Assembly (NCBI GenBank): GCA_021234155.1
Contig: JAJEKV010000002.1
Span: 38,677,841-38,741,840 of the forward strand
Source of the DNA: Isoetes taiwanensis
Taxonomy: Eukaryota; Streptophyta; Lycopodiopsida; Isoetales; Isoetaceae
Reading direction: 5' to 3'
DNA length: 64,000 bases
In this document: piece after piece, positions 20,021 to 58,926 of the stretch
Position numbering within the stretch: position 1 is the stretch's first letter
Layout of the letters: every line of letters begins with the position of its first letter
Made by a program: the position numbers and the translations under genes
The notes under the pieces: model-generated
What the model was told of the DNA's origin: nothing
Database searches by the model: none
What the model saw: the letters and a program-made list of their open reading frames with translations, nothing else

Positions 20021-21596
20021 TGTGACGCTCCGTGAACGTATACGACACTCGGGCGTATACATACGGGGACTTCCCCCTCCCATGGCAACCAACTCGCCAT
20101 GAGTAGGGCCCTCCGTCTAACTCGGACCATCTATGGAAAGATGCTCGAGTGAAGGACACAGAGGTGTCATTCGGCCCACGCCTTCAATGGGGCTCCTATG
20201 TCGCGGAAGCGTGCATACAAGGTTAGCATACATCATAATCGTATCATAAATATCCACCACGAAGGGTGGCACATCCATCCAACTGATAATAACAGAGAAG
20301 ATGCATTTAGCACTAGAGAAAACACCCCATAACCCATGGTTCTACCCTAACTCAGACTCCAGTGAGGATCGACTGACGGCTAGGTCTCAAGAGATCAGCA
20401 GACCGAATCTTGGCATGGCGTTGGCTGGCATAGAACATCGGCTAGGGTTGTTCACTCCATCCGCCCCTCCTGTGCACACTTTGCAGATGAGTCGAATCAT
20501 GCTATGGCATCACTATAGCCTTTAGGAGAGACTTGACTCAAGGTATCACCCTTCGAAGTCTACTCTGTGTTACATCTCCCGGTCCGATGAGGCGGTCGGG
20601 AAGTGTCCCCTTCCAGGATAGCAGCGGTTCCATGGGTGAGCTAGAGAATACGTGCCGCATCAGCGACCCCCGCATACGTACCCGACCTACTCCCCTAACT
20701 TTATCATCAAAGTACAGGATGCCCCATACGGGTCACATCTACGCACCCGTGGAGTGTCGGACCCATACCGCCCTCTACATTGACCGGCCATCGAGGCCTA
20801 GCCCATCCCAGGAGTCTCGGGAGCCTTTTATGTTCGTGCAAGACCCCACCCCCACTTCACCTGCGTCCCTTTTGGCAGTGCCGAAAGCAAGTCCATAGCA
20901 TCCACGGCTCGGTGGTCTCTTGTGCCCAGCCTTGGTTACTAGGTACTAGGGGACTACTAGGAGCATACTAAGAACATAAAGACACAGAGGTCTCTACCCC
21001 CCCCTAATCCCTGCTTTTTGGAGGACTAACAAAGATACTACCATAGATTCATCCATCCATTCATAACAAAGCATAATCCATAATTGAAACATAATCCTAA
21101 GTATCAGAGAAGGGTTAATCCTAGACAAAGACAACCAATGAAGACTGACTGAGGCGCTAGCCCTAGAGATATCAAGCTATTCTATCCACTAACCCGAAAA
21201 TCTGCTAGATCCATTATCATGTGGCATCTCCATCTTCAAGCAACTTGGGCGCTCAGCAGCTCCTCCTCTTGGTTCGATTTGGGGATCCAAATGGGATAGG
21301 GATCCAATTTGATGCCCCAAGTTAGCATTCTCCTACTGGCCAATCGAATTTGGCCAGGTGGCACCTTCCTAATTAATCAATTATCCTAACTTAATTAACT
21401 TAATTGAGTTAATTAGATAATGCTTCCTTAATTATAGGTAATTAACCTTTAATGACCCCTTTACTAATTTAGCATAGCTAAATTAATCCCTTTTAGGTCA
21501 ACCCCCTAGGTTAAAATACCCCATGATGGCGTATCTTTACTGCGTGACGTGATAGTATATTTATACGTATACCATATAACTACGTGGAATGTCACA
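20021..21596 (-). repeat. Left LTR (3' LTR) of the gypsy element
   Basis: 1576 bases, starting TGTGACGCTCCGTGAACG and ending GGAATGTCACA. It matches 31227-32785 over essentially its whole length, with scattered substitutions and small indels, for example around 20540, 20700-20900 and 21190-21260. Visible divergence means the insertion is not very recent. ATG-started frames inside it are not genes. Confidence 0.95.
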
Positions 21597-21612
21597 TTCT
21601 CCCCCCCTTAGA
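21597..21612 (-). other. Polypurine tract of the gypsy element
   Basis: On the minus strand the sequence directly before the LTR start reads AAGGGGGGGAGAA, the expected RNase-H-resistant primer for plus-strand DNA synthesis. Confidence 0.85.
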
Positions 21613-22117: not shown

Positions 22118-22633
22118 CTACATGCTTTCCCAGCAATTCGCGGTCATGCCAGCATTGACAATACACCACGTCCTAGAGAACACGAAGGTGATCTCATCAT
22201 CGGTAACTATTGTTAAGCACGATGCATCTACCCCTCTACTGTATGATTCTCGGCGAATCAAGCCTTCAAGCTTACCGCGGGGTGCGGGGTTGATAGCATC
22301 GTTGATGGTGCGGTCCTTAGATTCTCGCATGAAGTCCGGATAGTGCTTCTCAAGGTCTATCTTCATCACGCACGTAGCATCCTCAATTGGTAAGTGCTTC
22401 CACTTAACCAAGTATTGCAGCATTTGAGTCCTTCTGGTCTGCTTATAAGCTCGATCAAGAAGAGCTTCAGGCACTATATCTAAATGCTCTTCTGTCATTT
22501 CAAGGAGGGTGGGTGTATCCAAGATCTCCTCCGATTTGGGGTATGTTGCTTCCAGAAGACTCACGTGAAAGACCTTGTGGATCTTCGAAATTGGGTGGCA
22601 AATCCAAGCGATATGCCCGTTTCTCCAACACGC
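22118..22633 (-). pseudogene. Chromodomain region, C-terminus of gypsy integrase
   Basis: The minus-strand frame 22564-22118 contains PEALLDRAYKQTRRTQ, then YLVKWKHLPIEDAT, the hallmark of the retroelement chromodomain that follows integrase in chromoviruses. Family chromodomains bind methylated H3 tails and steer integration to heterochromatin. The usual Trp after 'DAT' is Cys here, so one aromatic-cage or packing residue appears altered. It sits in a different frame from the integrase core (which stops near 22634), so a frameshift separates the two in this copy. The ~80 residues after the domain are not recognisable. Confidence 0.75.
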
Positions 22634-23745
22634 TCAATGATGTTGAACAGTATTATCCGGGTGCCGGCTTCTTGCGTTACCAATCTTAAGCTTGGCTTGT
22701 TTAACCTTAATCTTGAGCCAAACCGATTCGCCCACGGAAGAAGACTTGGGGTCCTCGCGGCTTATCCGCCAACACTCTTTTGACGATCGTGATGCACCAA
22801 TAAGTAGCCAACGAACTTCTTCAACCAAAGCTTGCATTTCCAAGAGGAGTTGTTGAGAAACCTCCACCTTAGAAACGGGATTATGCCATGTGTCCGGAGT
22901 AAGGCATTGATAACCATAATTTATCATGAAGGAAGACATTCTAGAAGACTCTTGTTTCATGCTATTATAGGCAAACTCGACCAAATAAATATAGTCAGCC
23001 CATTGTGATTGCTTACTCCACACATAACTGCGTAGCATATCCTCTATAATGCGATTGGTACGCTCTGTCTGATCATCCGTCTGAGGATGATATGCCGTAC
23101 TCATAGCAAGCTTGGTTTGGATGGTGGCAAAGAAATCTTTCCAGAATGCACTTACGAATTTGGGATCCCTGTCGGATACGATAACTCGTGGCATTCCATG
23201 CAATCTGAAGATCTCCTTTGTAAACAACAAAGCAGTATCGAAGGCTGTGTCCGTGGTACGACATGGCAAGAAATGAGCCATTTTCGACAATTTGTCGACC
23301 ACTACCATCAATGCATCATATCCACGGAGAGTACGTGGAAGGACCACAATGAAATCCATGGTTATCACTTCCCATTTGGCATTGGGCACATCTAGAGGTT
23401 GTAATTCTCCTGGAATCCTTAATTGCTCAGCCTTGGTTTGCTAACACACCTGACACTGCTTAATATACCTGGCAATGTCCTTCATACACGGCCAAAAATA
23501 ACTGGAACGGATCTTAAAGTAGGTCTTCATAAAGCCTGCATGCCCAGCTATAGGGCTGTTGTGTGTATCATGGAGAATTAGCTTACGGACTCCTGAAGTC
23601 TCAGGTACACAGAACTTATCTTTGTAATATAATAAATTGCCGTGTTTCTTATACGAACGGAAAGCTTCACGTTCTTTATCTGTGCGTTAGCCAAACTAAC
23701 CCATATTTCACGGAACTCTAGATCCGTGGCCAAGGTCTGCTCTAT
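22634..23745 (-). pseudogene. Gypsy integrase (HHCC zinc finger and DDE core)
   Basis: The N-terminal zinc finger is readable upstream of the main ORF: HDTHNSPIAGHAGF, YFWPCMKDIARY and CQVC. A TAG (23441-23443) directly after CQVC stands where QQTK is usual. The core (23389-22634) holds the three catalytic acids: ITMDFIVVLP (first Asp), VIVSDRDPKF (second Asp) and QTDDQTERTNRIIEDML (Glu). A frame change near 23690 separates it from RNase H. In intact elements this enzyme inserts the cDNA into the host genome. Confidence 0.85.
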
Positions 23746-25176
23746 CTATTTTCCGAACTCACTGGTGAGTGTGGAAATTGCGTTACAATGGGTTCGGGTT
23801 ACCAAGGGATGGCGTGACAACGCATCCGCAACCACATTGTGTTTCCCAGGCTTATACATAATCTCAAAATCGTACTCCTCTAAAAATTCCATCCATCTCC
23901 TTTGACGGAAGTTAAGATTCGGCTGGGTTGATAGATAACGGAGACTCTGATGATCCGTATCAAGCTGAAATCTTCTACCAAGAAGGTAGTGTCTCCATAT
24001 TCGCAGAGCGCGGACAACAGCCAACAACTCCTGATCATGGGTAAGGTATCGCTGTTCAGTTTCATTCATTTTCTTGGAATCATAAGCAATAACCCTCCCC
24101 TCCTGCATTAGGACTCCACCGGTAGCAATCTTACTGGCATCCGTTGCTACCAGTTTATCCTTTTCCGGGTTTGGCAATGTGAGGACTGGTGCTGACGTCA
24201 AAGCATCCTTAAGCTTCTGAAAACTTCCCTGGACCTTTGCTTTCCAATGCTCAATCCAATCCTTCACTTTCTCATGCTTTGTAAGATCGGTAAGAGGTGC
24301 TGCAATCTTTGCAAAATCCTTAACAAATTTCCGGTAATACCATGCCAATCCTAAAAAACTTCGGACCTCTGAAACATTACCTGGAATGGGCCAATCCTTG
24401 ACTGCCTCTATTTTTGTTGGATCTGTAGCAATTCCCTCAGCTGAAATGACATGGCCTAAATAATCCACCTTGGGAGTGGCAAACTTGCACTTAGAGAGCT
24501 TAGCAAAGAGCTGATGACGTCTTAGCTTCTGTAGGGCTAGCCGAAGATGCTTCTCATGCTCCTCTAGGGTCTTACTATAGATGAGAATGTCGTCAAAGAA
24601 AATGACAACAAAATCATCCAAGTATTCTCGGAAGACATCATTCATTAACCGCATAAAAGTCGCGGGGGCATTAGTTAACCCAAAAGGCATAACTGTAAAC
24701 TCATAATGCCCATATCTAGTGCGAAAAGCAGACTTATGGATGTCCTCCTCTTTAATTCTTATTTGGTGATACCCGGAGCGTAAGTCAATCTTTGAGAAGT
24801 ACTTGGCCCCTTGCAACTGGTCCATAAGATCATCTGCCCTAGGCAAAGCATAGCGATTCTTGATCGTATGCTTGTTGAGCTGTCGATAGTCAATACACAT
24901 CCTCAAGGAGCCATCTTTCTTCTTAACAAAAAGGATAGGAGCGCCAAAAGGCGAAACACTAGGCCGAATGAAGCCTAGGTTTAGTAACTCCTGAAGTTGC
25001 TTCTTAAGCTCTGCCAACTCAGGGGGACTCATACGGTACGGGGCCTTACTGGTAGGCTTAGTACCTGGTTCCAAAGCTATCTCACATTCTACCCCTCTGA
25101 ATGGAGGAAGTTTCTGGATCTCGTCTGGAAAGAGATCGCTAAATTCCCTGAGAAGATTAGCAATGCTCTCTGGCAA
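23746..25176 (-). pseudogene. Gypsy reverse transcriptase and RNase H
   Basis: An uninterrupted minus-strand frame of 476 codons. RT motifs in order: [52 protein letters not shown], and [11 protein letters not shown] as the catalytic box (FFDD, a variant of YxDD). The tether [17 protein letters not shown] and RNase H follow ([25 protein letters not shown]). Length and order are normal for Ty3/gypsy. It stays in the same frame as protease upstream. Within this interval the enzyme looks intact, so decay is confined to its neighbours. Confidence 0.93.
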
Positions 25177-25785
25177 CGCAGCAACTACTTGCTTCTGTTT
25201 AGCATATGATTCAATGGATGCAAGTCTGATGACGCAAAGTAGCTTATCCTTGCGTATAGCCTTATTTAACTACCTGATGGACATAGGCTGCATAATGGGG
25301 TTTAATGGATCACCTTTTATAGTTACGCGGGCTCCATTAGCTGCGTTGAAGGTAACCTCCCGTTTTTCGCAGTCTATATTGGCTTTTGCAGATGCCAAGA
25401 ATTCCATGCCAACAATCTGATCATATTTGCCAATATCCATTAACTCGGCACCCAATGCCACTGGTGCACCTGGCAGCTGCATTTTGAGGTTAATGCGACG
25501 GCCATTAGTATGTCTGATCTTACCACTGGCTAAAGTCACAGGTTTCGGTCGGGATCTCAAAGTCTCAAGTTGCAACACCTGGGCCATTCTAGGAGAAGCA
25601 AAATTATGTGTACTTCCCGTATCCATAAGAATTATGAAAGGCTTACTGTCTACTTGACCTATAGTGGAAATAACGGCAGGCTGACTTTCAGCATTGCCGG
25701 TTTCAATTGCTGCAAAGATATGGGACGCACCGTGAATGTACTCGGGAGGCTCCTCGTCGACAGGTGGTGTAGACTCGAGATCATC
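25177..25785 (-). pseudogene. Gypsy protease and linker
   Basis: The frame after the gag stop (TAA at 25786-25788) continues unchanged through DDLESTPPVDEEPPEY to a retropepsin-like domain, ILMDTGSTHNFASP with the catalytic DTGS, then a family-typical stretch (VGMEFLASAKANIDC). A TAG at 25270-25272 (SIR*LNK) interrupts the link to RT; the same frame runs on directly, and Gln (CAG) is the obvious ancestral codon. The enzyme would release Gag and Pol products. Only the stops spoil it. Confidence 0.85.
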
Positions 25786-26990
25786 TTAATCGAGGTCGGC
25801 CATGGCCAGCTGGGTAGTCTGTGTGACATAAAGGCAATTCTGCATGAAGTGCCCAGGCCGCATACACCTGTAACATGCCTTCTCTTTGCGGAGCTGCTCT
25901 CGGGCCTCTTTAGGAATAGACTGTAAGAGGTTCCGAGATGACATACCTACATTATTCAGTTTGTCGGGCATGTTGAAGGTGACTTTCTTTTCCTGGCGGC
26001 TGTAAGAGTTCTGCTGAGAGGGCTCAGGACTTGGTGAACGGGGCTTGTAGGGTGTGTACGGGCACGGCTGGGAATAAGAGGTGGGGCGTTGGTACTGGTT
26101 TCTTGGCGTGTCCTCCTCAAGGCTCAATGCCTTAGCCTCAGCCTCTGCAACTGACTTCGGGTCTATGGCTTTAACCATTCGTTTAATCGAGGGGGCCAAT
26201 CCTTCAATATAGCCCTCCACCGCCCGCTTCTCATTCATACCTGGCACATACAGCCTCAAGCGCATGAATTCATCCGTATAGGCTTGAACCGACATGCCCT
26301 TCTGTTCCAACCTGTAAAAAATATCTGTTGGCATTTGTGCGCACGGGGCACATAATGCAACTTAAAAGCCTTGGCAAACTTTTTAAACTTGCATCTGCTC
26401 CTGTCTAGATGTTTGGCCCTAGCATAGCCTTTCCACCAAATCCTAGCTGCACCTGTAAGGTTGGTGGTGGCGACCTTTCCAGTATCCTTCTCGGTCATAC
26501 CATAGGATTTGCCGAATTCCTTCATCTCGTCTAACCAGGATTCCGCGTTAAGACCTCCCTTGGACTTACCATCAAACTGTGCTAATTTCCTGTTCTTCCA
26601 TATACTGGTAATGGCGATGTCCACAGTCTTATGGTACTCCTTATCTTTCCTAGCATGGTGACCTGACGACACGGATGACTGTGAAGACTCCGAGGTGTTG
26701 GTCTGTGAAGATGTGGCACTCTCACTAGAAGAACTTCTTCGTCACTTAGCATGGTGTCTCCTTTGTACAGGCACGGGTGCTGGTGCCGGTGGGGGTGGCT
26801 GCTCGGTTGGTGGACTTGGCGGTGGTGGCGGTAACTCCGGTCCATACTGCGGAGGATTGGTGTTCAGCACATATGTCTGCAGCTCTACCAACTGTCTCTT
26901 TATCAATAAGAGCTCCTGCTCGGGTGTCAATCTGCCAGCATCTGAGGGGGTGTGCCAAGAAGCATTACGTACACCGTCTATATGGACCAT
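25786..26990 (-). pseudogene. Gypsy gag with CCHC zinc knuckle
   Basis: It starts at an ATG (26990) in MVHIDGVRNASWHTP, followed by a Pro-rich stretch, a TGA (26742-26744, after RRHHAK), a Ser-rich linker and the capsid region (FDGKSKGGLNAESWLDEM; AARIWWKGYA). A one-base frame change near 26300-26335 moves to the next frame, with YRLEQKGMSVQAYTDEFMRL and the nucleocapsid knuckle CYRCMRPGHFMQNC (CX2CX4HX4C). It ends MADLD and TAA. Gag would build the virus-like particle and bind RNA. One stop and one frameshift disable this copy. Confidence 0.88.
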
Positions 26991-27243: not shown

Positions 27244-27732
27244 CTAGGGCTGCGCGAAAGGGTACATGATGGAGTAAGGGATGCTCTCCCGTACTACCCT
27301 GACTACCTTGTAACGAGCCCATGCCTGGACGATAAGATACTGGTAATCTAACGTAGGACTAATGATGAGCAAATTAAAAAGGTCTCTCAGTGCGTAGAAG
27401 ATCTGCCATAGATGATCAGTTGCATCGGCAAAAGCTTCGTGCTTCGTCATCTCCCAGTAATTCCAGGTACGATGGAGGGTTTGTTCCAGATGCTCGAAGG
27501 TGCGCTCACGGAGAATATTGACAATTTCAAAGCCCTTAATTGGATCGTAGGGCTCTCCTTCATCCATGGGTTCCTCTGCCACATAATCGACATCCCCTGT
27601 CTGACACTCTGCATACTCTTGACCATAGTCTTGCTCTGGAGGTATCTGATCTTCCCCTCGTAGTTCCTTGGGTATTCTGTCTTCGGTTTCTTCCAGCTCA
27701 TCGTCAGTAAGACGGCAAGAATGAATATACAA
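27244..27732 (-). CDS. Accessory ORF D of the gypsy element, unknown
   Basis: A 162-codon minus-strand ORF from ATG (MYIHSCRLTDDELEET) to TAG. The first 60 residues are strongly acidic (DDELEETEDR, MDEGEPYDP). The rest is amphipathic and aromatic (ALRDLFNLLIIS; LIVQAWARYKVVRVVRES), possibly helical. I do not recognise a family. It lies in the sense of gag-pol, 250 bases upstream of gag, and an AT-rich, intron-like spacer with a TTTTCTTTTAG acceptor-like end precedes it. It could be an exon of a larger accessory protein with ORFs B and C. Confidence 0.5.
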   Translation of the reverse strand: MYIHSCRLTDDELEETEDRIPKELRGEDQIPPEQDYGQEYAECQTGDVDYVAEEPMDEGEPYDPIKGFEIVNILRERTFEHLEQTLHRTWNYWEMTKHEAFADATDHLWQIFYALRDLFNLLIISPTLDYQYLIVQAWARYKVVRVVRESIPYSIMYPFAQP

Positions 27733-27935
27733 TATTGAACGATTTCCTATACTTCAAACTCTAAAAGAAAAGACAAGTATCGTAGGAAAAAGACAATGTA
27801 ATTGTACTCAACGATACAATAATAAAACATAAGAAAATAACACACATATATATATTATTTGATGGCTTATTGGAAAATGCCAATCAACGATTACATTTAT
27901 ACGCAATGCAAAAATTCATAACTGTAAAAAGATAT
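27733..27935 (-). other. AT-rich, intron-like spacer between ORF C and ORF D
   Basis: Very AT-rich (includes TATATATAT), sharply different from the GC-richer ORFs on both sides. On the minus strand it contains TTTTCTTTTAG before ORF D, a plausible 3' splice site. No donor was fixed. Confidence 0.35.
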
Positions 27936-28420
27936 CTAAGAAGTAGGTTCCTCGTGTTCCTCCATAGGCTGAGGAGGCGGCTGGTAGCGCATTAAGGTGG
28001 TGCTGGGGCTAGCAGAGAGGGCGGCTCGAGCTGCTGCCTCCGGTGGTAAGCAAGTGGCCAAGGGTGCTGCGACAAGGAGTCGCATACTAGCGCAACCCGC
28101 CACGTCTCCCAATGCCACTATAGCCAGATCTCATCGGACCAAAGTGATAGTGGTGGCATGATAGTCAATCTTCTTATGGCCCGCCAAGGTGGATAACGCA
28201 CAGAGCGCCCACTGGAGGTCTCTGCTTCCTTTTCCAAGTTGACAGGGATATTCTCCTCCTCTGCTTCCTCTTTGTCATCCCGAAGACGCATCTTTGTATC
28301 TGATAGATCCTCCTCACTCATGTCTACTTCAGCCATGGTGATATGTAGTGGTTGAGTTGTTGGAGGAGGTCGCCTATGAGCTGCAAACTGCTCCTCCGGA
28401 GGTTGGGAATCATCGGTCAT
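27936..28420 (-). CDS. Accessory ORF C of the gypsy element, possibly frameshifted
   Basis: Two minus-strand ORFs overlap by one base. The upstream one (28420-28118, 100 codons, MTDDSQPPEEQFAAHRRPPP) is acidic in the middle (MSEEDLSDTK; DDKEEAEEEN) and ends SLWSDEIWL. The second (28118-27936) is Ala/Leu-rich (MRLLVAAPLATCLPPEAAAR), ends PMEEHEEPTS and has no ATG at its start. A single frameshift would make one protein of about 160 residues with an acidic N-half and a hydrophobic C-half. No recognisable domain. I compared it by eye with histones H2A, H2B and H4 and saw no convincing match. Confidence 0.4.
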
Positions 28421-28426
28421 TAGAAA

Positions 28427-29215
28427 CTACCGGAGAGACAAAAGGGTCTCAACGGGCTCTAGCTCTTCTGGCCGAAATACTAACAAGTTCTGGACTTGTG
28501 GCGGATGCACAACAGGTGTTGTAAAGTCGAGGACGTCATCCTGGCAGTACTCCGCAAGGTCATAGAGGACCTCTATCTTTCGGCGGCCCCGCATATCAGC
28601 AATGACGCGGTAAGCCCACATAACGTCCTCGAGAATAAGATACTCTTGGTTATTCAAGAGTATGATAGGGAGGAGGTTTAGCCATTCGAGCTTGAGGGCT
28701 TTATCTCGACCTGCTGGTGCTTCGGTGGCTAGCTCCTTCCACCGTGCAAAATCCTGCTCGTCGACGACTTCATCGTCCTCCGGGTCAGGGTGTACTGGTG
28801 TAGAAGACTACTCTGCGGCTATCTGCTCATCCTCTATGTACTGGTCCATGATGATGGCCAGCGCAAATCGAGCCTCAAAACAGAGTTCCCGATCTATAGT
28901 GATGATAGGGAGGTCGGTCCCTCTCCTCCTAATGCCCTTAATGACATTCCGGGCATGGTCATCGCCTCCCAACATCTCGAGCAAGGTGTGGAAGTCAAGG
29001 TAGAGCTGTGAGTCATCTTCATTGAAGACACAAGCAGGCACAATCTCCTCACAGTAGAACTGAAGAAAAGCAGCGTAGTCGGGGTGCGCCTGCATGTTAT
29101 GGATGAGATCCACTTGCTGGAGCAGATGAGGATGAAGAAGATCAAAGGGGACCGCGGGGTCCCAGTGCTCACCATCTAGGCACCACTGGGAGGAGGAGGA
29201 AAACGCTAAAAGCAA
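28427..29215 (-). pseudogene. Accessory ORF B of the gypsy element, one internal TAG
   Basis: A 263-codon minus-strand frame broken only by a TAG at 28808-28810 (after DEQIAAE); the frame reads on without change as SSTPVHPDPEDDEVVDEQDF. The first half has HPDYAAFLQFYCEEIVPACV and FEARFALAIIMDQYIEDEQI. The second half has WLNLLPIILLNNQEYLILED and RRKIEVLYDLAEYCQDDVLD. It is acidic and rich in aromatic/Leu helices, with no known motif. Upstream on the same strand are TATAAAGCC and AGGGTTTCATTTTCG, then TCCTCCTCCTCCCAG, like a plant promoter/leader and splice acceptor. It may thus have its own transcript. No ATG lies at the upstream limit; the true start is unknown. Confidence 0.45.
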
Positions 29216-29432
29216 GAACGAAAATGAAACCCTAATGGGCCAAAAAGTGGCTTTATACTTTTCGGCACGTTTTCCTAGGTCATAAAAAAATTATTATTTA
29301 CTTAATAATTTACATTTAAATATACACCAAGTGGCGAAAAGACACGATTTTGAATTTATAGCTTCGAAAAAATATTTTACATAGATATAGGTCACAAAAT
29401 TTTTACAATAGAAACAAAGAAACTTCTAACAG
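29216..29432 (-). promoter_or_regulatory. AT-rich spacer with TATA-like box upstream of ORF B
   Basis: On the minus strand this spacer runs from AT-rich sequence (TAAATAATAATTTTTTTATG) into AAGTATAAAGCCACTTTTTG and TTAGGGTTTCATTTTCG. TATAAA followed about 25 bases later by an AGGGTTT-type leader is common at plant promoters. Sequence resemblance only. Confidence 0.3.
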
Positions 29433-30506
29433 TCAGCGGAATTCCCCTCGGATCCTTCTTGCAAGCTGGATATCCTTGGGCATTATGGTAACTCTTTTAG
29501 CAAGAATTGCACAGAGGTTAGCATCACTCAAAATTTCCACAAGGTATGCCTCAGCGACTTCCTGAGGTGCGAGTATAGCGAATGCTTGGAACCTCAGGTC
29601 GGTCTTGAATTCTTGGGCAATTTCACGAACCAGACGCTGGAAGGGTAGCCGACGTATCAATGGCTCAGTAGTCTTCTGATACTTACGTATCTCGCGAAGA
29701 GCTACTGTGCCCGGTCGGAACCTATGGGGCTTTCTCGGCTTAACAGTTGCCTTAAGCAATGGCAAGGACTTCTCGCCGGTCGAGGGGTGTTTCGCCCTTT
29801 GCACTATCTGCTCCCGACGCTGTGCCGACGTTTTCTTGCCAATTGCAGCATCCCTCTGCAGTCGGGTCTTGTAACCGACACCTACCCTTGTGGGTTTCGT
29901 AAGCTTCCTCTTCCTATTACCCCATCTTTCCTCTGTATTTTGCACAACATGTTGATCTCCCTCCTGATCAACATTTTGATCCGCGTCCTGCTGTGTTTGG
30001 GCAACCTCCTCTGCTCTACGAATCCGCTCTGTCTCAGCATCCCGGGCCTCCCAGTCCTGGCGCACTTGTGTTTGCCTTGCAATCTCCGTATGGTACCGGT
30101 CCGGGTGAGCTCGCATGTCGGCTTGCACGAGGTCCATGCGGTCTATTTGCTGGAGGTCCTCTATCCTAGCAAGGTGCAAAATCCGTTGGGCCTCAGTTCG
30201 GATAAGCTCTACGGGGTCCTCCTCTGGGCTCGGCAACGGGTAAAACTTAACAATGGCCCAAGCTTGATCAGAACGCTCCACAAGGGTGTAAGGTTGGTCT
30301 GCAGCATTCAGCTTCATAAGGAAGCGTTCGTTGAAATGGAAGATAGGGTATGGGATTTGGCGATTCTCGGTAAAGTGGGTCACAAGCAGGTCTAGAACAG
30401 AGTCGACCATGGAGCTATCATCTGAGAGATGGTCTACTAGCGCGCTATACAGCTGGAAGACATTCATCTTCTTTAGGTCTATTGTAAGCTTGAAGCGCGG
30501 CATCAT
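29433..30506 (-). CDS. Histone H3 domain protein encoded by the gypsy element
   Basis: An uninterrupted 357-codon ORF from ATG 30506 ([20 protein letters not shown]) to TGA. Residues 1-110 form an unrecognised globular region; 110-190 look coiled-coil ([15 protein letters not shown]); 200-240 are basic ([14 protein letters not shown]). The last ~120 residues (29795-29436) are histone H3: a shortened tail (HPSTGEK), then [38 protein letters not shown] and [19 protein letters not shown]. By eye about 80 of the last 98 residues match plant H3. Loop 1 has canonical length, so it is not CENH3-like. Changes include H3-number L60P, L92P, G102E, F104L and H113L. It lies in gag-pol sense between leader and gag. 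Function unknown; chromatin incorporation or particle packaging are possibilities. Confidence 0.92.
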
Positions 30507-31213
30507 GGCAACTAGCGCATACAAGTGGCAAGGAAGTGGGCGCTTAGTGTAGGGTAGGTGGCGCTAGGGTCAGAAGGGAGACGCTAGGCGGTTAGGGTAG
30601 CAGCAGGATAACATGCAGATCGGCTATGGCGGCAAGAATGCGCAACTCCGGCGGCTATGGCGGCAAGAAGGCGTCCCAACTAGCACACTTTTCAAAAAAG
30701 TAACACAAATTTGAATCTAACTTTTAATTAATTTTTTTTTTTTTTGAAAAGTTTCTAAATTTTTTTTTTCTTAAAACAAAACGGACGCGTATTTTTATAC
30801 GCGGAACCGTATGGGGCGCTGCTAGCGTTATACGCTAATATTTTTTCGAGAAAAACACTCTATCCGACAGCAGCGCCCCTTTTGCTTTTTCGCCTTACTG
30901 TCGCCATTTCGCCCTCGGGTAACGTGCCCCCTAGGGTATTTGGGAGGTGCCCGATCCATTGGAACCATTTTCGCCTTCATCCGAGCTACTTACAAAAAGT
31001 TATGACCTTTCTAAACTTGGGTCCTCCAGTCGTCCATGTTTTCCTCCATAATCGCCCTAAACCTCTTAAAACTCACAATTTATTACATCAACCTAGCACA
31101 GAACCAAACATCGAAAGGTTAAGCAGTCCAACTAACTTAAACTCCCACCTAACTACCGAACTAACGAGTTAGAGGTTTGGTCAGTGCTATGATTTCGGAC
31201 AACCAAAATCACG
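30507..31213 (-). other. 5' leader of the gypsy element
   Basis: About 700 bases between primer site and H3 ORF, with homopolymer A/T runs (30729-30775). At 30786-30802 is the palindrome-like GCGTATTTTTATACGC, followed by ATGGGGCGCTGCTAGCG and TATACGC (30811-30835). A closely similar block recurs in both LTRs of the unrelated copia element (54.87 and 58.38 kb). Confidence 0.55.
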
Positions 31214-31225
31214 GCTCTGATACCA
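31214..31225 (-). other. Primer binding site (initiator tRNA-Met)
   Basis: On the minus strand TGGTATCAGAGC follows the LTR end after one base. It is the standard plant retrotransposon site complementary to the 3' end of initiator methionyl tRNA. This fixes the element's orientation. Confidence 0.92.
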
Positions 31226-31226
31226 C

Positions 31227-32785
31227 TGTGACGCTCCCTGAACATATACGACACTCGGGCGTATATATACGGGGACTTCCCCCTCCCATGGCAACCAACT
31301 CGCCATGAGCAGGGCCCTCCGTCTAACTCGGACCATCTATGGAAAGATGCTCGAGTGAAGGACACAGAGGTGTCATTCGGCCCACGCCTTCAATGGGGCT
31401 CCTATGTCATGGAAGCGTGCATACAAGGTTAGCATACAGCATAATCGTATCATAAATATCCACCACGAAGGGTGGCACATCCATCCAACTGATAATAACA
31501 GAGAAGATGCATTTAGCACTAGAGAAAACACCCCATAACCCATGGTTCTACCCTGACTCAGACTCCAGTGAGGATCGACTGACGGCTAGGTCTCAAGAGA
31601 TCAGCAGACCGAATCTTGGCATGGCGTTGGCTGGCATAGAACATCGGCTAGGGTTGTCCACTCCATCCGCCCCTCCTGTGCACACTTTGCAGATGAGTCG
31701 AATCATGCTATGGCATCACTATAGCCTTCCGGAGACGCAGACTCAAGGTATCATCCTTCGAGTCTACTCCAGGTTACATCTCCCTGGTCCGATGAGGCAG
31801 GTCGGGGAAGTGTCCCCTTCCAGGATAGCAGCGGTTCCATGGGTGAGCTAGAGAATACGTGCCGCATCAGCGACCCCCGCATCCGTACCTGACCTACTCC
31901 CCTAACTTTATCATCAAAGTACAGGATGCCCCATACGGGTCACATCTCTGCACCCAGGGAGTGTCAGACCCATACCCGGCCCTCTACGTGACCGGCTATC
32001 AGGCCTAGCCCACTGTAGGAGTCTCAGGAGCCTTTTATTTTCGTGCAAGACCCCACCCCCACTTCACCTCTGCGTTCCTTCGCTGGTGCTGAGCAATTCC
32101 ATAGCATCCACGACTCGGTGGTCTCTTGTGCCCAGGCCGCAATTAGTAGGTACTAGGGGGACTACTAGGAGCATACTAAGAACATAAGGCACAGAGGTCT
32201 CTACCATCCCCCAATCCCCCGCTTCGGAGGACTAACAAAGATACTACCATAGATTCATCCATCCATTCATAACAAAGCATAATCCATAATTGAAACATAA
32301 TCCTAAGTATCAGAGAAGGGTTAATCCTAGACAAAGACAACCAAAGAAGACTGACTGAGGCGCTAGCCCTAGAGATATCAAGTTATTCTATCCACTAACC
32401 CTAATTTCTGCTAGATCCATTATCATGTGGCATCTCCATCTTCAAGCAACTTAATTTCAAAGCTCCTCCTCCTCTTGGTTCGATTTGGGGATCCAAATGG
32501 GATAGGGATCCAATTTGATGCCCCAAGTTAGCATTCTCCTACTGGCCAATCGAATTTGGCCAGGTGGCACCTTCCTAATTAATCAATTATCCTAACTTAA
32601 TTAACTTAATTGAGTTAATTAGATAATGCTTCCTTAATTATAGGTAATTAACCTTTAATGACCCCTTTATTAATTTAGCATAGCTAAATTAATCCCTTTT
32701 AGGTCAACCCCATGATGGCGTATCTTTACTGCGTGACGTGATAGTATATTTATACGTATACCGTATAAATATGTGGAACGCCACA
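31227..32785 (-). repeat. Right LTR (5' LTR) of the gypsy element
   Basis: 1559 bases, TGTGACGCTCCCTGAACA to GTGGAACGCCACA, paired with 20021-21596. As the 5' LTR it should hold the promoter. A TATA-like ATTTATACGTAT on the strand near 32750 is present in both copies. Confidence 0.94.
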
Positions 32786-34872: not shown

Positions 34873-35540
34873 CTAGGTGTAGAGGGTGTGTGCCTACTTG
34901 CAGGTCTTATGGCTCTACCGAGTCTGGCAGGGGGTTCAAATCCCCGTAATTGCATGTCTTTTATATGAGACGAGTTAATGTTGACTTGCATATTGACTTG
35001 TTGCAATGGTTAAGTAATCTTATGCTGAGGTGGAAATGGGTATTTGACCCCATTGCGGATTTGGTGGATGGAGTAGAATATACGAGAAGGAATATATTAG
35101 GGAATATAAGGGAAATCAATGACTGAAAATAAGCGATAAGAGAAAATAAGCGATACTGAATTTAGTTTATCTTCTGTGATGAAAGGTAATGCGTACGTTG
35201 AACGTGTCTAGAGATTGTGTGCATGCTTGCAGGTCTTATGGCTCTGCCTAGTCTGACAGGGGGGTCAGATCCCCATAATTGCATGTCTTTTATATGAGAT
35301 GAGTTAATGTTGACTTGCATATTGACTTGTTGCAATGGTTAAGTAATCTTATGCTGAGGCGGAAATGGGTATTTGACCCCATTGCGGATTTGGTGGACGG
35401 TGTAAAATGCACGAGAAGGAATATGTTAGGGAATATAAGGGAAATCAATGACTGAAAATAAGCGATAAGAGAAAATATGTGATACTGAATTTAGTTTGTC
35501 TTCTGTGATGAAAGGTAATGCATATAATGAAGGTCTCGAA
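34873..35540 (+). repeat. Tandem duplication of a ~334-bp unit with tRNA-like box
   Basis: Two head-to-tail units, about 34873-35206 and 35207-35540, more than 90% alike by eye. Each starts TCTAG, contains CTTGCAGGTCTTATGGCTCT and, in unit 1, GGGGGTTCAAATCCCC, which fits a tRNA T-arm / pol III B box (GGTTCAAATCC). In unit 2 the box is mutated (GGGGTCAGATCCCC). A tRNA-derived SINE-like origin is possible; no clear A box or terminal tail was found. Confidence 0.65.
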
Positions 35541-49253: not shown

Positions 49254-51440
49254 TTGTTGTTGTTGTTGTTTTTTTTTTGGGAAGGAAGGAAGGAAGATTC
49301 TTTTATCGTCCGCGGAGGCCAATCGGCCTATGGGATCCAAATTACACGGGTGCAGCAAGCCCGTTGCTACCCGGATTAAAAAACCCCCTTACGAGGGAAA
49401 AACCGTCGCAGCAACAAGCCTGCTGGCAGCTGTACAAATATACATATACACATGAATTCCCGGCACCTCAGGTAGGTGCGTGGGGACAGAGGTGAGTCCG
49501 CAGATCCAAAACCTCATGGAGGTAGGAGCCAAGGGATCGAACTGACGGCGTACTGAGTAGCTCGTGCAGTGGCAGACCAGATCGCACCAAGAGGGCGTAG
49601 CGAGCCCGAATCTGACTATAGGCTGGACAGCTCTGGAAGGCATGGCTTTCATCCTCAACAACCCCCAGCGGGCAACACTGACAAAGCCTGTCCTGGCGCG
49701 GCTCTCCAATCCACCGACCCGTCTCAAGCCGAAGATGGTGGGCCCCTGTTCGAATGGACGCGATGATCTTGCCCTTCTTCATGGGCAACTGAGAATGCAG
49801 GTAGAGCTGTGGGCCTCGAACCAGGGTTTATGTGCTGTTTGTAGTGTGCCATCTTTACCTGTTCCAGAGCATTGTGGTCCCAGAGCTTCCCCAGGAAACA
49901 AGAGTCCAAGTACCCCCTCAGCCTATCCCGGCCGGCGTCTGTGTGCACCTGGACGCACCTATGTGCCTCTACGTTCCAGCGCGCCAGCCATTGGGCTCTC
50001 TTGTCCTTCCAACAAGCCCTGAGTCGTTGCGGGCTCAGTGCCACAGCGTAAGTGCAGGAGCCGAGTGTCGCCCATGCTGGCTACCTTCTGGAAATAAACA
50101 ATGTGTCTATCGAGGGCCGCATGCTGCAGGGGCATGAATCCTGTCTCCTGCAACAAGATCTGATATGGAACTGAGGGCTTGACCCCAAGTGCCCGCGTCA
50201 AAAATGCCTTCTGGACCTGCTCCAAGTCGTCCCAAGTCGCCAAAGACACCACTGGGCCCCACACCTCGACCCCATATAGAAGAACTGGCTCCACCAGTGC
50301 CCGGAACAAATGTGACTGGTGGCCCCAGTCATACAGCTCTGCCTTGTGACTATTGCTTTGCATTGCGTACATCGTCTTCCAACCTGCGGTCACCCGAAGG
50401 CGAATAGATGCATCCCAATAAATTGAGGACGGAAATTCCACCTTCAGGTACTTGTAGCTGGGTGTGACCTCTACCATCTGCCCCTGATAAGTGAGCGCCG
50501 GAGGTGCTGGATGACGTGAGGAGGATATGAGGACCACCTTAGTCTTGGCCAGGTTGACACGCATATCCGTCACTTGGCAAAATGTGTCTAGGGCATCTAG
50601 GTGTGCCTGCATGCCCTCTGGTGTATGGGCCAAGAGGTCCACATCATCCGCATAGATGAGCTGCCGGATGACCTGGTGCAAGGGCTGTATACCATCCCCC
50701 CCATTGGCAGCAAGCCAGGCTTCCAACTGGTCAATGTAAAGTCCAAAGAGTGTGGGTGAGAGAGGACAACCTTGCCTAACTCCAATGTTGTTGGCAAATG
50801 ACTGTCCTTCCGGTTGCATGCGGCCTGTGCAGCTCTCGTACAGTCTGTACACTGCGTTCTGCAGATCCACAGGGAGCCCCAGATGGTGCAATCTCGCCCA
50901 CAACTTTTCCCGGGGTACCATGTTGAAAGCTTTTGCAAAGTCCACAAAACAGCAGTACAGGTCCTCCCGACGGTTCCTGCTGTCCTCGACCAGGGTCCTG
51001 AGTGTGAAGATGTGATAAATGGTCGAATGTCGGGGTCGGAAGCCTGCCTGGGTAAGTGCCCTGATTTCCGTTGCCTCTGCCCAGCTGGTTACCTGCTATT
51101 CGAGAATGCCCGCCAACAGCTTGGCAAACACTGAGCTGACCATGATGGTTCGGTAATTGGCTGGACAGTGTGGGTCCCCTGCCTTGTAGATCGGAACAAC
51201 CCTGCCTGTGGTCCATGACCGGGGAAAACCCTCTTGCAGCGCCCTGTTGAACAGTGCAGCAAGGACGGGCACCATGGGCTGTCCTGCCCACTTGAGCAAC
51301 TCCGCTTGCAGGCCGTCTAAGTCTGCTGCAAGACAGTCCCCACGGGTTGGGATAGCCCTCCTGTAAATTCTCAGCTCCCTGCTTCTGTCTGGGACCATTG
51401 GTGCAAAGCTCTTGATCCGGCTCTTGTCCGTGAATTCAGG
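49254..51440 (-). mobile_element. 5'-truncated LINE (RT and C-terminal zinc finger)
   Basis: Minus-strand non-LTR retrotransposon. RT frame from about 51440 (LDGLQAELLKWAGQPMVP, NYRTIMVSSVFAKLLAG), one TAG at 51096-51098, then YCCFVDFAKAFNMVPREKLW, GVRQGCPLSPTLFGLYID and the catalytic LIYADDVDLLAHT, then LVEPVLLYGVEVWGP, to 49959. Frameshifts follow before the C-terminal finger CQCCPLGVVEDESHAFQSC (about 49.66 kb). The minus strand ends in an A-tail (AAAAAAAAAACAACAACAAC, 49253-49279). The endonuclease is missing, as in typical 5'-truncated insertions. Closely related in sequence to the LINE at 60.1-62.4 kb. Confidence 0.88.
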
Positions 51441-53428: not shown

Positions 53429-53757
53429 CCATAGTTCAATGTTTAGAAAATTACACAAGGAAATTCATTGTCATAAGGAATAGACCAGCCACCAAAGTTA
53501 TTTAATTATCATAAGGAATAATCATTCATTTCATTATCACAAGGAATAATCACAAGGAATTTTGGTTGAGAATCATTATCACATGGAATAGACCAGCTAG
53601 CAAAATATTTTGTTGCCATTCTTTCAACATCATGTGGATCTATATCCTCAACAATTGCACATGTGAGGTTACAAGGTGTGTAGTTTTCTCCAAAGAAGTC
53701 CTGCACTTCTCTTCTCCTAATTCCTTGGAAATCATCAGGATATCCAATGACAGGTCA
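53429..53757 (-). pseudogene. M16 zinc-peptidase fragment, copy A
   Basis: The minus strand reads GYPDDFQGIRRREVQDFFGE, then YTPCNLTCAIVEDIDPHDVE and RMATKYFASW, then a tail and stop. The pattern 'v.dFf...YtP.Nlt.aiVGDidp..ve.la.kYF..w' is the middle of the M16 (pitrilysin/insulinase-type) metallopeptidase domain, which cleaves peptides in organelles. VGD has become VED. The HXXEH active site is not present. It follows the FolD fragment on the same strand, so the copy is a chimera of two unrelated genes. A twin lies at 58927-59265. Confidence 0.55.
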
Positions 53758-54327
53758 TTTTCCAAACGGATCATATATCATCCCACAAAGGGTGCTGCAA
53801 GTGTTGAATCTGTTGTTTCTGATTGTAGCTTTGCCAAGTCCACAACATTTTGGAGCAGCATAGTGATAGCAATGGTCATGGGCCCCAACACCACCAGGAA
53901 CAGGTGTTATCTATCCTGCCACATCTTTTACTTCATTAAAATCTACGTCACCAACTTTTCTATATCCCAACTTCTTGCTTGGATCAGTCACTATATTTGT
54001 CCCCACATCAATTACTGCTGCATCTGGTTAATCCAGTCTTGTTTTATCTGAAAGTCAGAATATCAAAAGTTACAATCTTTGGCATCACAAGTTCCTCCAA
54101 AAACTTTTATTACCATTTGTGCTTGACCAGCAACAGCTATTACAATATTTGCATTTTTCACAATACTCTGTGGTTCAACAGTTCGAGAATGCACAATAGT
54201 GACAGTTGCATCTAGCTTATTTAAAAGCATTGCCACTGGGAGACCGACAATGTTGCTTCTTCCAACCAGTACTGCATGCTTTCTAGAAATTTTGATCCCA
54301 CTTCTTTCCAGAAGCTCTATGCATCCC
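53758..54327 (-). pseudogene. FolD (methylene-THF dehydrogenase/cyclohydrolase) fragment, copy A
   Basis: Minus-strand exon-like pieces: about 54327-54108 (GCIELLERSGIKIS, then HAVLVGRSNIVGLPVAMLL and ATVTIVHSRT, the NADP-binding core of FolD) and about 54047-53778 (PDAAVIDVGTNIVTDP, VGDVDF, then ITPVPGGVG). Between them TTCTGACTTTCAG looks like a splice acceptor. Defects: a base missing before PDAAVIDVG, a TAG just before ITPVPGG, and an extra base after GGVG (GGGGCCCAT) shifting the frame. The 5' exons and catalytic Lys region are absent. Intact enzymes interconvert one-carbon folates. Twin at 59266-59820. Confidence 0.8.
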
Positions 54328-54521
54328 TATAATAATTAACCTAAAACAAGAACAATATAAGATGTCCATGATAACAAATATATAGCTTCAGAAAATGGGG
54401 CGTGTAATTTGTTCCAGCTCATACAGATCGCACTATAAATCCCTTACAAGGATTTCATTAATGCTTTCATTGAAGCTCCAAATTTTTGCTAGACATTGCA
54501 ACCTGAAAGCTCTGATACCAA
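54328..54521 (-). other. Junction of copy A with copia leader sequence
   Basis: Up to about 54472 the DNA matches the region right of FolD copy B (to 59962). From about 54476 to 54521 it instead matches the copia 5' leader next to the right LTR (GAAGCTCCAAAT, GCTAGACATTG, CCTGAAAGCTCTGATACCA). It thus places primer-site sequence outside the left LTR. Confidence 0.7.
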
Positions 54522-55195
54522 TGATGTAATTATAGCCCAAATCTAGAAGAATTAACAATCTAAGAAGTAATTATGACTTATTCAATCACACTTCTTACAA
54601 CTTAGATACAACTAAACTTTAGATCAAAAATACGAGAGCCCGGACATTCATCCTTTGATGAATCCGCATCCGATCATCTGAGTGTACTTCAAACAATCAT
54701 TGCTGCTCCTTTATATTAGCTTAAGCGGCACCGACTCACAAGGAAGCGGCTCCATATTTCCAGTCGTCGGTCATAGACATACTATTCTCAATTTTCCCAA
54801 ATATCCCATAGGCGTAAAATAAACCTCTGAACCATTGAAACCTAACTAGGTTTCCTTGCGTATAATTTTCACCGCTTTTTTTATACGTCGAAAATATACA
54901 TGGGCGCTGTTAGCGGAATACGCCTTTTAAATTTGATTCTGAGCATCACAAATGCAAGCAGCGGCCATTTTCTATTTTCGTGCTTTTTACTTGCATTCAC
55001 TGCCACTGCTTCTCATGAATGCTCATATGACTCATAACCTATTGCCACTGCTTCTCATAGGCTAGAGCTTGCTCACATTTCAAGACTTATATGCTGAAAA
55101 CTCATATAGAGGATCAACTGATAATGTCAGAGCAAACTCAGTTATTGCATGAATCAATTGAGAAATACTATTATAATATGAACAAAACCCCTTCA
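54522..55195 (-). repeat. Left LTR (3' LTR) of the copia element
   Basis: About 674 bp, from TGATGTAATTATAGCCC to AACAAAACCCCTTCA, near-identical to 58035-58704. It contains the block TATACGTCG...ATGGGCGCTGTTAGCG. Confidence 0.93.
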
Positions 55196-55833
55196 CTCTC
55201 CCTTCATATTATAATTAGTGCAGCTTATCAAGCTTTTCATATTGCAGAATTTACTGTCTGACAATGATTTTGTTAACAAATCTGCCAACTGCATATTTGT
55301 GTGAACATACTGAACTTGTATTACATTCTTCTGCACCAAATCTCGAATAAAATGCATTTCTAATTCTATGTGCTTTGTCCTTTCATGCATGGTAGGATTC
55401 CTTGTCATAGCAATACAGCTAGTACTATCTGACTTTAGAACAAGAGGATCTTCTTGTTTCATTCCAAGTTCCTCTAGAAGCCTTCTGATCCAACCAAGTT
55501 CTTTAGCAGCCAGTGTAGTTGCTGCATACTCAGCCTCTGCAGAGGATAAAGCAATGGATTTCTGTTTCTTACACTTCCAGGATATGGGACCTCCTCCTAA
55601 CATAAAAATAAATCCAGATGTAGATTTCCTCTCATCCATGTCTCCTGCCTAGTCCAAGTCACTATAAGATTGAAGGTTGAGATTATCACTGTCAAACTCA
55701 ATTCCAAAATAAATGGTGCCCTTGAGATATCTTAAAACTCTTTTTGCTGATTGCCAATGGGCTGAGCTTGGTTCATTGCAATATCTTCTCAATATATTAA
55801 CTGAAAAAGCAATATCTGGCCTGGTATTGTTAG
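55193..55833 (-). pseudogene. Copia RNase H and end of RT
   Basis: The minus strand reads MYLANNTRPDIAFSVNILRR, LRYLKGTIYFGIEF and YSDLD, then a TAG where the family has Trp (SD.DWAGD). The same frame continues MDERKSTSGFIFMLGGGPIS, WKCKKQKSIALSSAEAEYAA (RNase H) and ADLLTKSLS. The stop codon TGA (55195-55193) is the first three bases of the LTR itself, so pol runs through the polypurine tract to the LTR edge. One in-frame stop disables it. Confidence 0.88.
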
Positions 55834-56424
55834 CTAAGTACAATAGACAGCCATTAATTCTCTATATGGTACATTTTTCATTTCATTCCTTTCCTTTTCA
55901 GTTTGAGAAGACATTCTACTTGAAAGCTTACTGCCAGGTATCATTGGAGTTTTCACAGCCTTGGAATCTTCCATATTGAATCTTTTCAAAACTCCCTTTA
56001 TGTTCTGCCCTTGAGATAGACATAATATTTTGTTTGCCCTGTCTCGATATACCTCTATTCCTAAAAACTTTTTTAACTCTCCCAAATCAGACATCTTGAA
56101 CCTCTCACTTAGAATATTCTTGCACTTTTGCAGAATTTCATTATTGCTACTAACCATAATATTGTGATCAACATATAAAGCAATGTAGCAAAATTCTTCA
56201 CCCTGTTTAAACAGATAGATATTTCCATCATTATTTAGTTTGACAAACCCTTGTTCCTGCAAATATGAATCCATGCATAGGTACCATTGCCTTGGAGATT
56301 GTTTCAATCTATAAACTGCTCTTTTTAATTTCCACACTTTATCTCTCCCTTGCTCAAAGCCAGGAGGTTGCTTCATGTAAATATCCTCTTCTAATTTCGC
56401 ATTCAAAACAGGCTGTAGTAACAT
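55834..56424 (-). pseudogene. Copia reverse transcriptase, C-terminal half
   Basis: The frame has EDIYMKQPPGFEQGRDKVWK, LKQSPRQWY and ALYVDHNIMVSSN. The catalytic box is YVDH instead of YVDD, so the second catalytic Asp appears lost, in addition to frameshifts at both ends (about 56400 and 55850). Confidence 0.87.
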
Positions 56425-57640
56425 CCATATGATGTATCTCTAGATCCTTAGCATTAGCCAAAGCCAACAACATTCTAATGCTTGCCATTTTAACTATTGG
56501 TGAAAAAGTGTCCTCATAATCTACTCCATACTTTTGTGTAAATCCTTGCGCCACTAACCTTGCTTTATGCTTGATAGATTTATTGTCACTTCCTTGCTTG
56601 ATTTTGAAGATCCACTTGCAGCCAATTATGTTCTTCCCTTTTGGTGGATCAATTACATCATAAGTATCTGTACTTTTAAAGGCATTTAGCTCATCTTCCA
56701 TTGCCCTTTTCCACTTACATTTATCTGCACTATTGAATGCTTCTTCAACAGTTTTTGGTGCTTCTGTATCTAGCAAAGCTAGTATTTCTACTAAGTTTAA
56801 CTCATCATGTCTAAGTCTTTTGCTTTTTTCTGATGTATCTCTACCAAATAATTCAGTGTTTACCTTGGCCTCTTCTTGTAGAATCTGAGTTTGAGTCCTC
56901 CTTTGTCTTTTTTGAACCTCTACTGCTTCTGTTTTATCTGCATCATTATCTTCTGCTGCCACATGATCACCATCATTATTAATCTCTGGTTCCAGGTCTC
57001 TATGTACCTGCATGTTCACAGGGTCAGCATTAATTTCAATATTATCATCATCACTTGTATATCCGCTATCTGCATGCTTTAGTTCTTGCACCGGCTCTTT
57101 TGTTTTGTCCATATCATACTTAAGTCTTCTGTCCTTATAATATTGTTGTTCATCAAATGTAATGTCCCTGCTTATCACAATTTTCCTTTTCTCTGGATCA
57201 TACATTCTATAAGCTTTCGATTGACTGCCATAACCTACCAAATAGGTAATTCTAGCTCTGTCATCAAGTTTCAATCTTTTTTCCTTTGGAATATGCACAT
57301 AACCTAGACAGCCATAAATCTTAAATTTGTCATAACTTGGTGTTGTACCAGAGCATAGCAATTCAGGTATTAAACCATTAATGCTTGTTGAAGGCAGATT
57401 ATTTTGTATTTCTACTGCTATTTTCGATGCTTCATCCCAAAGGAAATTTGGCAGTCCTGCATGCTTAATCATAGCTCTAACATCATTTAATATAGTCCTA
57501 TTCTTCCTCTCTGCAACTCCATTTTGCTGAGGAGAATGGCTACAAATCAATTGTCTCTGAATTCCTTTCTCTTTGCAATATCTCTTGAACTCATTGGATA
57601 AATATTCTCCTCCTCTGTCTGAGCGTATTTTCTTTATTTT
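56354..57640 (-). pseudogene. Copia integrase C-terminal part and RT N-terminal half
   Basis: From about 57640: IRSDRGGEYLSNEF (catalytic Asp of the integrase core), CSHSPQQNGVAERKNRTILN (catalytic Glu), FKIYGCLGYVHIPKEKR, an acidic linker (TSDDDNIEIN), then RT start VIDPPKGKNIIGCKWIFKIK, HKARLVAQGFTQKYGVDYED and TFSPIVKMASIRMLLALAN. Length and spacing are normal for copia. The N-terminal zinc finger and first catalytic Asp are deleted. Confidence 0.9.
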
Positions 57641-58022
57641 TCTTTATAATGCTGAAGTAAATACCTCCATATTTGGCCTGATGATTTACCTCTGATTTTC
57701 AGCAAAATAGAAACTTTGCTAGTTAAAATAGCATATGCCTCCTTGACCTTAGCTGGACTTATTGACACTCCTTCAGCTGCTGCCTTGTCAGAAGAGCTGC
57801 TTTCTCTTCTCTTAACATCGCTCTTGTAGAAGAAAAATCGCCTCCTCGCCCGCAATAATACTAGTAGAATCAGTAGATCATGAAACCAACTCCCATAAGT
57901 CCTCATTCTCTAAAACATTTTTGATATGTTCTTTCCAGATTTGAAAACCTGGACCTCCTTCATAAATTTTTATTCCATTGAGTAAAGAAGCTCCAAATCT
58001 GCTAGACATTGTAACCTGAAAG
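57641..58022 (-). other. Deletion scar and 5' leader of the copia element
   Basis: A 90-codon minus-strand ORF (57906-57634; RRESSSSDKAAAEGVSISPA) may contain a gag scrap; it is not recognisable. The leader near 57.98-58.02 kb (GAAGCTCCAAATCTGCTAGAC) is repeated at 54.48 kb. Confidence 0.4.
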
Positions 58023-58034
58023 CTCTGATACCAA
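58023..58034 (-). other. Primer binding site of the copia element
   Basis: The minus strand reads TGGTATCAGAGC one base from the LTR end, complementary to initiator tRNA-Met. Confidence 0.88.
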
Positions 58035-58704
58035 TGATGTAATTATAGCCCAAGAATCTAGCAGAATTAACAATCTAAGAAGTAATTATGACTTATTCAA
58101 TCACTTACAACTTAGATACAACTAAACTTTAGATCAAAAATCCGAGAGCCCGGGCATTCATCCTTTGATGAATCCGCATCCGATCATCTGAGTGTACTTC
58201 AAACAATCATTGCTGCTCCTTTATATTAGCTTAAGCGGCACCGACTCACAAGGAAGCGGCTCCATATTTCCAGTCGTCGGTCATAGACATACTATTCTCA
58301 ATTTTCCCAAATATCCCACAGGCGTAAAATAAACCTCTGAACCATTGAAACCTAACTAGGTTTCCTCGCGTATATTTTTCACCGCATTTTTTATACGGCA
58401 GAAATATACATGGGCGCTGTTAGCGGAATACGCCTTTTTAATTTGATTCTGAGCATCACAAACGCAAGCAGTGCCCATTTTCTATTTTCGTGCTTTTTAC
58501 TTGCATTCACTGCCACTGCTTCTCATGAATGCTCATATGACTCATAACTACTGCCACTGCTTCTCATAGGCTAGAGCTTGCTCACATTTCAAGACTTATA
58601 TGCTGAAAAGTCATATAGAGGATCAACTGATAATGTCAGAGCAAACTCAGTTATTGCATGAATCAATTGAGAAATACTATTATAATATGAACAAAACCCC
58701 TTCA
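58035..58704 (-). repeat. Right LTR (5' LTR) of the copia element
   Basis: About 670 bp, matching 54522-55195 with few differences (for example AAATCTAGAAG versus AAGAATCTAGCAG). Confidence 0.93.
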
Positions 58705-58926
58705 GAACTATATACCCATGGTGATATGCATTATTGAAGAAAACTTGGTATGTGCAACATTTACTAAAGACATGTGGCAAATTTGTACCTTGTATTAAGA
58801 TGTAAACTGTAAAAAGAAGGAAAGGAGAAAAAGTAAATCAGAACATACTGATATTTTGTCAAAATTGCATTCCCTTCAGGGTTGTACATTGAGTTTTAGT
58901 TTTGCGTACTCATTTGCCCTCTGAAA
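58705..58926. other. Flank between copia and FolD/M16 copy B
   Basis: 222 bases with no counterpart beside copy A. No gene. Confidence 0.5.

Follow-up and report, generated by a model that had tools for sequence, protein, structure and literature searches.

A Ty3/gypsy retrotransposon of Isoetes taiwanensis with an open reading frame fused to a histone H3 core

Why would an LTR retrotransposon code for a histone H3, given that hosts silence retrotransposons partly by histone H3 modification? The question is raised by a locus of Isoetes taiwanensis (assembly GCA_021234155.1, contig JAJEKV010000002.1, positions 38,677,841 to 38,741,840). The whole stretch of 64,000 nucleotides was analysed and is called the window below, with coordinates counted from its first letter. 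A first-pass annotation, made from the letters, had claimed here a Ty3/gypsy element with an open reading frame (ORF) of histone H3 fold between primer site and gag. We examined the anatomy of this element, the identity and divergence of the H3 part, the age of the copy and the roles that an element-encoded H3 could have.

Anatomy of the element

The LTR element has a total length of 12,765 bp and lies on the minus strand, as do all of its features given below, with gag, protease, reverse transcriptase (RT), RNase H, integrase and chromodomain in this order. The 5' LTR (31227-32785, 1559 bp) aligns with the 3' LTR (20021-21596, 1576 bp), both running from TG to CA. The primer binding site TGGTATCAGAGCC (31213-31225), which we take to be of the initiator-Met tRNA type, starts 1 nt after the end of the 5' LTR, and a polypurine tract, AAGGGGGGGAGAA (21597-21609), adjoins the 3' LTR. 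The flanking five bases, TAGCC at the 3' end and TAGCA at the 5' end, match at 4/5 and may be a degenerate target-site duplication. The gag stretch, with capsid and CCHC knuckle (25786-26990, candidate ATG at 26990), scored just under the Pfam cut-offs. It is followed by an aspartic protease domain (25336-25707; RVP_2, 1.3e-13), reverse transcriptase and RNase H (23872-24927; RVT_1 1.6e-39, RT_RNaseH 7.2e-32), an integrase with a zinc-binding part (H2C2, 9e-16) and a core (rve, 1.3e-8) separated by an in-frame stop (23084-23686), and a chromodomain (22325-22474; Pfam Chromo 1.2e-5, 25.6 bits against a cut-off of 25.1). The paired TG...CA LTRs, the primer binding site, the polypurine tract and the order of protease, RT, RNase H and integrase are those of a Ty3/gypsy element and, because the chromodomain is present, the element is a chromovirus by domain content. 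Scans of the RT with short exact patterns against prokaryote and viral contigs gave no confirmed relative, a result that says little about plants, and Rfam gave no match over the window.

A leader (30507-31212) separates the primer binding site from the first long ORF, ORF1. From the LTR end to ORF1 there are ten ATGs, each with a short ORF of no more than 50 codons, and two A-runs lie shortly before ORF1 (30732-30769). The CpG observed/expected ratio of the leader (30507-31226) is 1.07, compared with 0.43-0.82 in nine other element parts; ORF1 is not clearly set apart from other parts in its CpG content. Downstream of ORF1, the ORF2 stretch (28118-29290) keeps one frame with two in-frame stops (28808-28810 and 28427-28429) and has no Pfam match, and ORF3 (27244-27753), 169 codons from stop to stop, has none above the cut-off, a Lipocalin_10 hit (0.097) being taken as chance. 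When the N-terminal part of ORF1 (ORF1N), ORF2a, ORF2b, ORF2c and ORF3 were compared pairwise (300 shuffles per pair), 8 of the 10 pairs scored as shuffled, and a weak likeness was seen for ORF2b with ORF3 (7/300 shuffles as high) and for ORF2c with ORF3 (1/300; short acidic parts).

Other repeats share the window. The end of a related, diverged LTR lies at 63570-64000 on the minus strand; 67 nt of it are 88-90% alike to LTR positions 1094-1159, the likeness beyond these is patchy by eye, and it ends ...GACGTCACA with no primer site after it. Beyond the window edge near 64000 there may be a further element, of a related family. At 53432-59889, a Ty1/copia-type ORF (56357-57643; RVT_2, 8.2e-28) stands between direct repeats about 5.5 kb apart, with a second repeat set 3.5 kb apart inside. 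Likely remains of non-LTR retrotransposons were found on the minus strand at 49962-51095 (RVT_1, 4.5e-24) and at 61770-62432 (endonuclease-type domain, 1.4e-6), and 34877-35505 is a tandem duplication of a unit of about 329 nt, its two copies being 93% alike over the 300 nt compared.

ORF1 and its histone H3 core

ORF1 (29433-30506, 357 codons plus TGA) is intact, runs in the same sense as gag-pol and precedes all other long ORFs downstream of the primer site, in agreement with the uninterrupted 357-codon frame of the first-pass annotation. From stop to stop it spans 376 codons (29433-30563). When the sequence from primer binding site to gag was shuffled 500 times with an order-1 Markov model, the longest ORF of a shuffle had 109 codons on average and 198 at most. 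The N-terminal part has the base composition by codon position of a coding sequence (T 0.11 at position 1, A 0.38 at position 2). The comparison with Pfam histone profiles that the annotation had suggested gave a match of the C-terminal part to Histone (PF00125) at 1.6e-40. A PDB search with ORF1 returned 177 distinct sequences up to 1e-3; among the best 60 of these 177, which were listed, H3.3 stood first at 3.2e-47. A model predicted from the single sequence, of low confidence, was compared with known structures by Foldseek; the top match, and the sole one up to 0.001, was a 99-residue chain of a nucleosome entry (E 2.8e-5), which is 80% identical and is therefore H3. The structure models are of low confidence, with mean pLDDT of 49.2 and 53.2. 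Together with the LTRs, the primer binding site and the domain order, the Pfam and PDB matches bear out the claim of a Ty3/gypsy element with an H3-fold ORF between primer site and gag. The H3 identity of the end of ORF1 held as well, and its proposed length of about 120 residues has to be shortened, recognisable H3 covering about 98-107 residues with a core at 29442-29735. A FANCI_HD2 match in ORF1 (Pfam 0.0073; 16 bits, the cut-off being 25) and two further weak Pfam matches (0.07-0.08) were taken as chance; NCBIfam gave no match, and a short exact pattern scan of the H3 part against viral contigs gave no confirmed relative, which says little about plants.

We considered that the H3 stretch might have been added to this copy alone, by a later nested transposon or by misassembly. 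The length of the stretch between primer binding site and gag (about 4.2 kb) and the patchy LTR differences described below would suit such an event, but the stretch has no long bounding repeats, the best inverted pair being 19 nt at 84% and the longest direct repeat 27 nt at 74%, and ORF1 is a single reading frame in the gag-pol sense. An artefact or nested insertion is in our opinion highly improbable. A plain insertion of a processed H3 mRNA was rejected, no A-run of nine or more following the H3 end. The reading that we prefer is that a host H3 was captured by the element, and the two parts of ORF1 are described with this in mind.

The N-terminal 257 residues (29736-30506) have no known relative and no recognisable H3 tail. 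Models of low confidence predict a helical or mixed domain, long helices (about residues 98-198) and a basic linker. A PDB search with 250 of these residues gave no match up to E 5, and short exact patterns gave no confirmed relative among viral and prokaryote contigs, which says little about plants. ORF1 contains neither ARTK nor ARKS, and the usual tail with its K4 and K9 sites cannot be recognised in it. When the last 120 residues were compared with the PDB, the best alignment began at chain position 33. Stretches of 20 to 60 residues ahead of the core resembled the H3 tail no more than their shuffles did (458-1370 of 2000 as high, over four lengths); a shortened H3 tail ahead of the core is not supported by this shuffle test. 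In the PDB search that had H3.3 as its best match, the alignment reached chain position 28 with low confidence, one alignment set a K-S pair against K27-S28, also with low confidence, and the Pfam Histone match begins 20 residues before the core. An H3 tail remnant altered past recognition may be present upstream of the core. The basic linker is lysine-rich and could be modified in unforeseeable ways, which, like the K-S pair, speaks against the role that we prefer below.

The core of 98 residues (29442-29735) was aligned with H3 36-133, with PDB chains of H3.1 and H3.3 as references. It is identical to canonical H3 at 81/98 residues, with 17 differences from H3.1 and 17 from H3.3. The replacements relative to H3.1 are K36R, S57T, L60P, K64R, D77E, S86A, S87F, V89I, A90L, L92P, A95V, G102E, L103I, F104L, E105S, T107A and H113L; L90 of the ORF1 core matches the H3.3 chain and F41 the H3.1 chain. 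Alpha-2 holds 12 of the 17 replacements against H3.1 and 11 of 17 against H3.3, counts that were reached in 0 and about 3 of 2000 simulations, respectively, and the last 19 residues compared (115-133) hold no difference (P 0.019 and 0.011, 2000 simulations), both regions having been picked after the data were seen. This uneven placing is suggestive, the regions being post hoc. Loop 1 is unchanged (0/7), and the conservativeness of the replacements did not clearly differ from neutral simulation (P 0.19 and 0.067).

Three of the replacements, L60P, L92P and H113L, could disturb the folding of H3 or its H3-H3' contact, to which H113 belongs, and such possibly harmful changes speak for decay or for a non-nucleosomal role. 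The altered H3 (H113L, L92P, L60P, tail lost) might interfere with the host by binding H4 or H3 chaperones without making proper nucleosomes, as a decoy that lowers host H3 deposition on the cDNA or the new copies of the element. The C-terminal part without differences and the gathering of changes in alpha-2, with an alteration at the H3-H3' contact residue H113, would agree with a decoy; however, the same changes fit decay, and we find a decoy improbable. The H3 DNA-contact residues are largely retained. With the basic linker and the chromodomain on the same element, this would be consistent with an H3 part that binds cDNA in the virus-like particle, or that holds the pre-integration complex to chromatin, where it would work together with the chromodomain integrase. 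ORF1 is nevertheless fused to neither gag nor integrase, and we place packaging or tethering below the decoy in probability. Both would compete with our preferred reading, in which the captured H3 acts on the chromatin of new copies.

Age of the copy and of the H3 part

The gag-pol region is disrupted by a stop in gag (26741-26743), by frame changes between 26361 and 26256 and between 23746 and 23686, and by in-frame stops at which the frame closes (25786, 25270, 23441 and 22634); at least one of the stops may be a natural gag-pol boundary. Since gag and pol are broken, this copy is dead. The LTR pair differs at 86/1552 aligned sites (51 transitions, 35 transversions) with 13 gap openings, giving a K2P distance of 0.058. 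Along the two LTRs (20021-21596 against 31227-32785), the differences form dense patches between long identical runs, as if from conversion, template switching or consensus errors.

The 17 H3 replacements correspond to at least 21 nucleotide changes. With half of the LTR divergence, 6.0 missense changes are expected in the H3 core since insertion (P(>=21) 1.5e-6) and, when the whole LTR divergence is charged to the H3 stretch as the most cautious reading, 12.0 are expected (P 0.012). The H3 core has thus diverged beyond the age of the copy, which argues that the H3 was probably on the element before this copy landed, given an ordinary H3 as donor; the test assumes such a donor, and a divergent one would weaken the argument. 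This divergence does not show selection. At this age, ORF1 would be free of stops by chance with P 0.32, so that an open ORF1 is in itself no proof of selection; when the H3 part was simulated under neutrality, 39-42% of the runs had no stop either.

The H3 part could also be a functionless passenger, a fragment gained by template switching and present in one or few copies only. No second copy of ORF1, RT or integrase was seen within the 64-kb window, and the absence of stops from ORF1 is not significant. In addition, host genes are picked up by LTR elements of plants, as a rule in the gag-pol sense, and additional ORFs explained in this way occur in one or few copies, according to the sections of a review considered here (PMC7264820). 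On the other hand, the H3 is fused in frame to a coding part of 257 residues, its divergence, given an ordinary H3 as donor, predates the insertion, and its replacements are unevenly placed. We consider a mere passenger unlikely, though deserving more weight than a decoy, and think it probable that the capture preceded this insertion and that the H3 was carried by a family.

Proposed role and comparison with known systems

We propose that a chromovirus took up a host H3 core, probably via its mRNA, that this core became fused in frame behind the N-terminal protein part, and that the fusion would have passed through cycles of retrotransposition that preceded the insertion of this copy. The ORF1 protein would enter the nucleus by its basic linker, the retained histone fold would pair with H4, and the protein would be laid into or beside nucleosomes, its bulky foreign N-terminus taking the place of the H3 tail and of K4 and K9 in it. 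Chromatin with this protein would not bear the usual H3K9 methylation on that subunit, and the likeliest benefit to the element would be a weaker silencing of its new copies. The explanation as a whole, with a host H3 captured, carried before insertion and acting on the chromatin of new copies, is offered tentatively. Its mechanistic part (H4 pairing, a nucleosome with a foreign tail, weaker silencing) is doubtful when taken by itself, and we are a shade more reserved about a whole chromovirus lineage that would encode a chimeric H3, with a foreign tail unable to bear the usual K9 mark, setting the chromatin of its own cDNA or new insertions. From the one damaged copy examined, we infer that a family may have kept the H3 fusion as a chromatin-acting accessory protein. 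The roles named by the first-pass annotation, marking or opening chromatin, packaging cDNA and guiding integration, are conceivable for such a protein. We rank weaker silencing of new copies first, followed by a passenger, a decoy and, last, packaging or tethering. If the proposal is true, the element would answer host silencing directly in the nucleosome, by supplying an H3 that lacks the usual tail, and new H3 variants could naturally arise from it.

Replaced N-terminal tails and changes in alpha-2 are known from CENH3. ORF1 shares with CENH3 and other H3 variants the H3 fold with a replaced tail and alpha-2 changes, but differs from them in its unchanged loop 1 (0/7), in its 81/98 identity to canonical H3 and in being encoded by a retroelement. 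With plant chromoviruses, the element has in common the LTRs, the tRNA primer site and the order of gag, protease, RT, RNase H, integrase and chromodomain, whereas here the interval from primer binding site to gag measures about 4.2 kb and contains three additional ORF stretches, of which one is joined to H3. Among the matches listed from the open-licence literature, none is a histone-encoding LTR element, which is no proof of novelty.

Additional ORFs in the internal region are a feature that the element shares with other plant LTR elements, in which, in the sections of the sources considered here, the position between pol and the 3' LTR is the most frequent (PMC7264820) and most such ORFs have no known domains (PMC9289625). 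In contrast, ORF1 lies upstream of gag, in sense, and has a known fold. Histones are not mentioned in the sections considered of the review of plant additional ORFs (PMC7264820) or of a study of such ORFs in elements of bdelloids (PMC5408684). In 121 angiosperm genomes that were screened, 15 unusual domains were reported, and the section of that study considered here does not name a histone (PMC9289625). The same study gives a precedent for gypsy elements that capture a host regulator: Ty3/gypsy elements of orchids carry a captured AlkB-type m6A demethylase, kept over several replication rounds (PMC9289625). These orchid elements, as described there (PMC9289625), and the element reported here have in common a host regulatory domain placed as an additional ORF in a gypsy-type element, the cargo being an enzyme in the orchids and a core histone in Isoetes taiwanensis.
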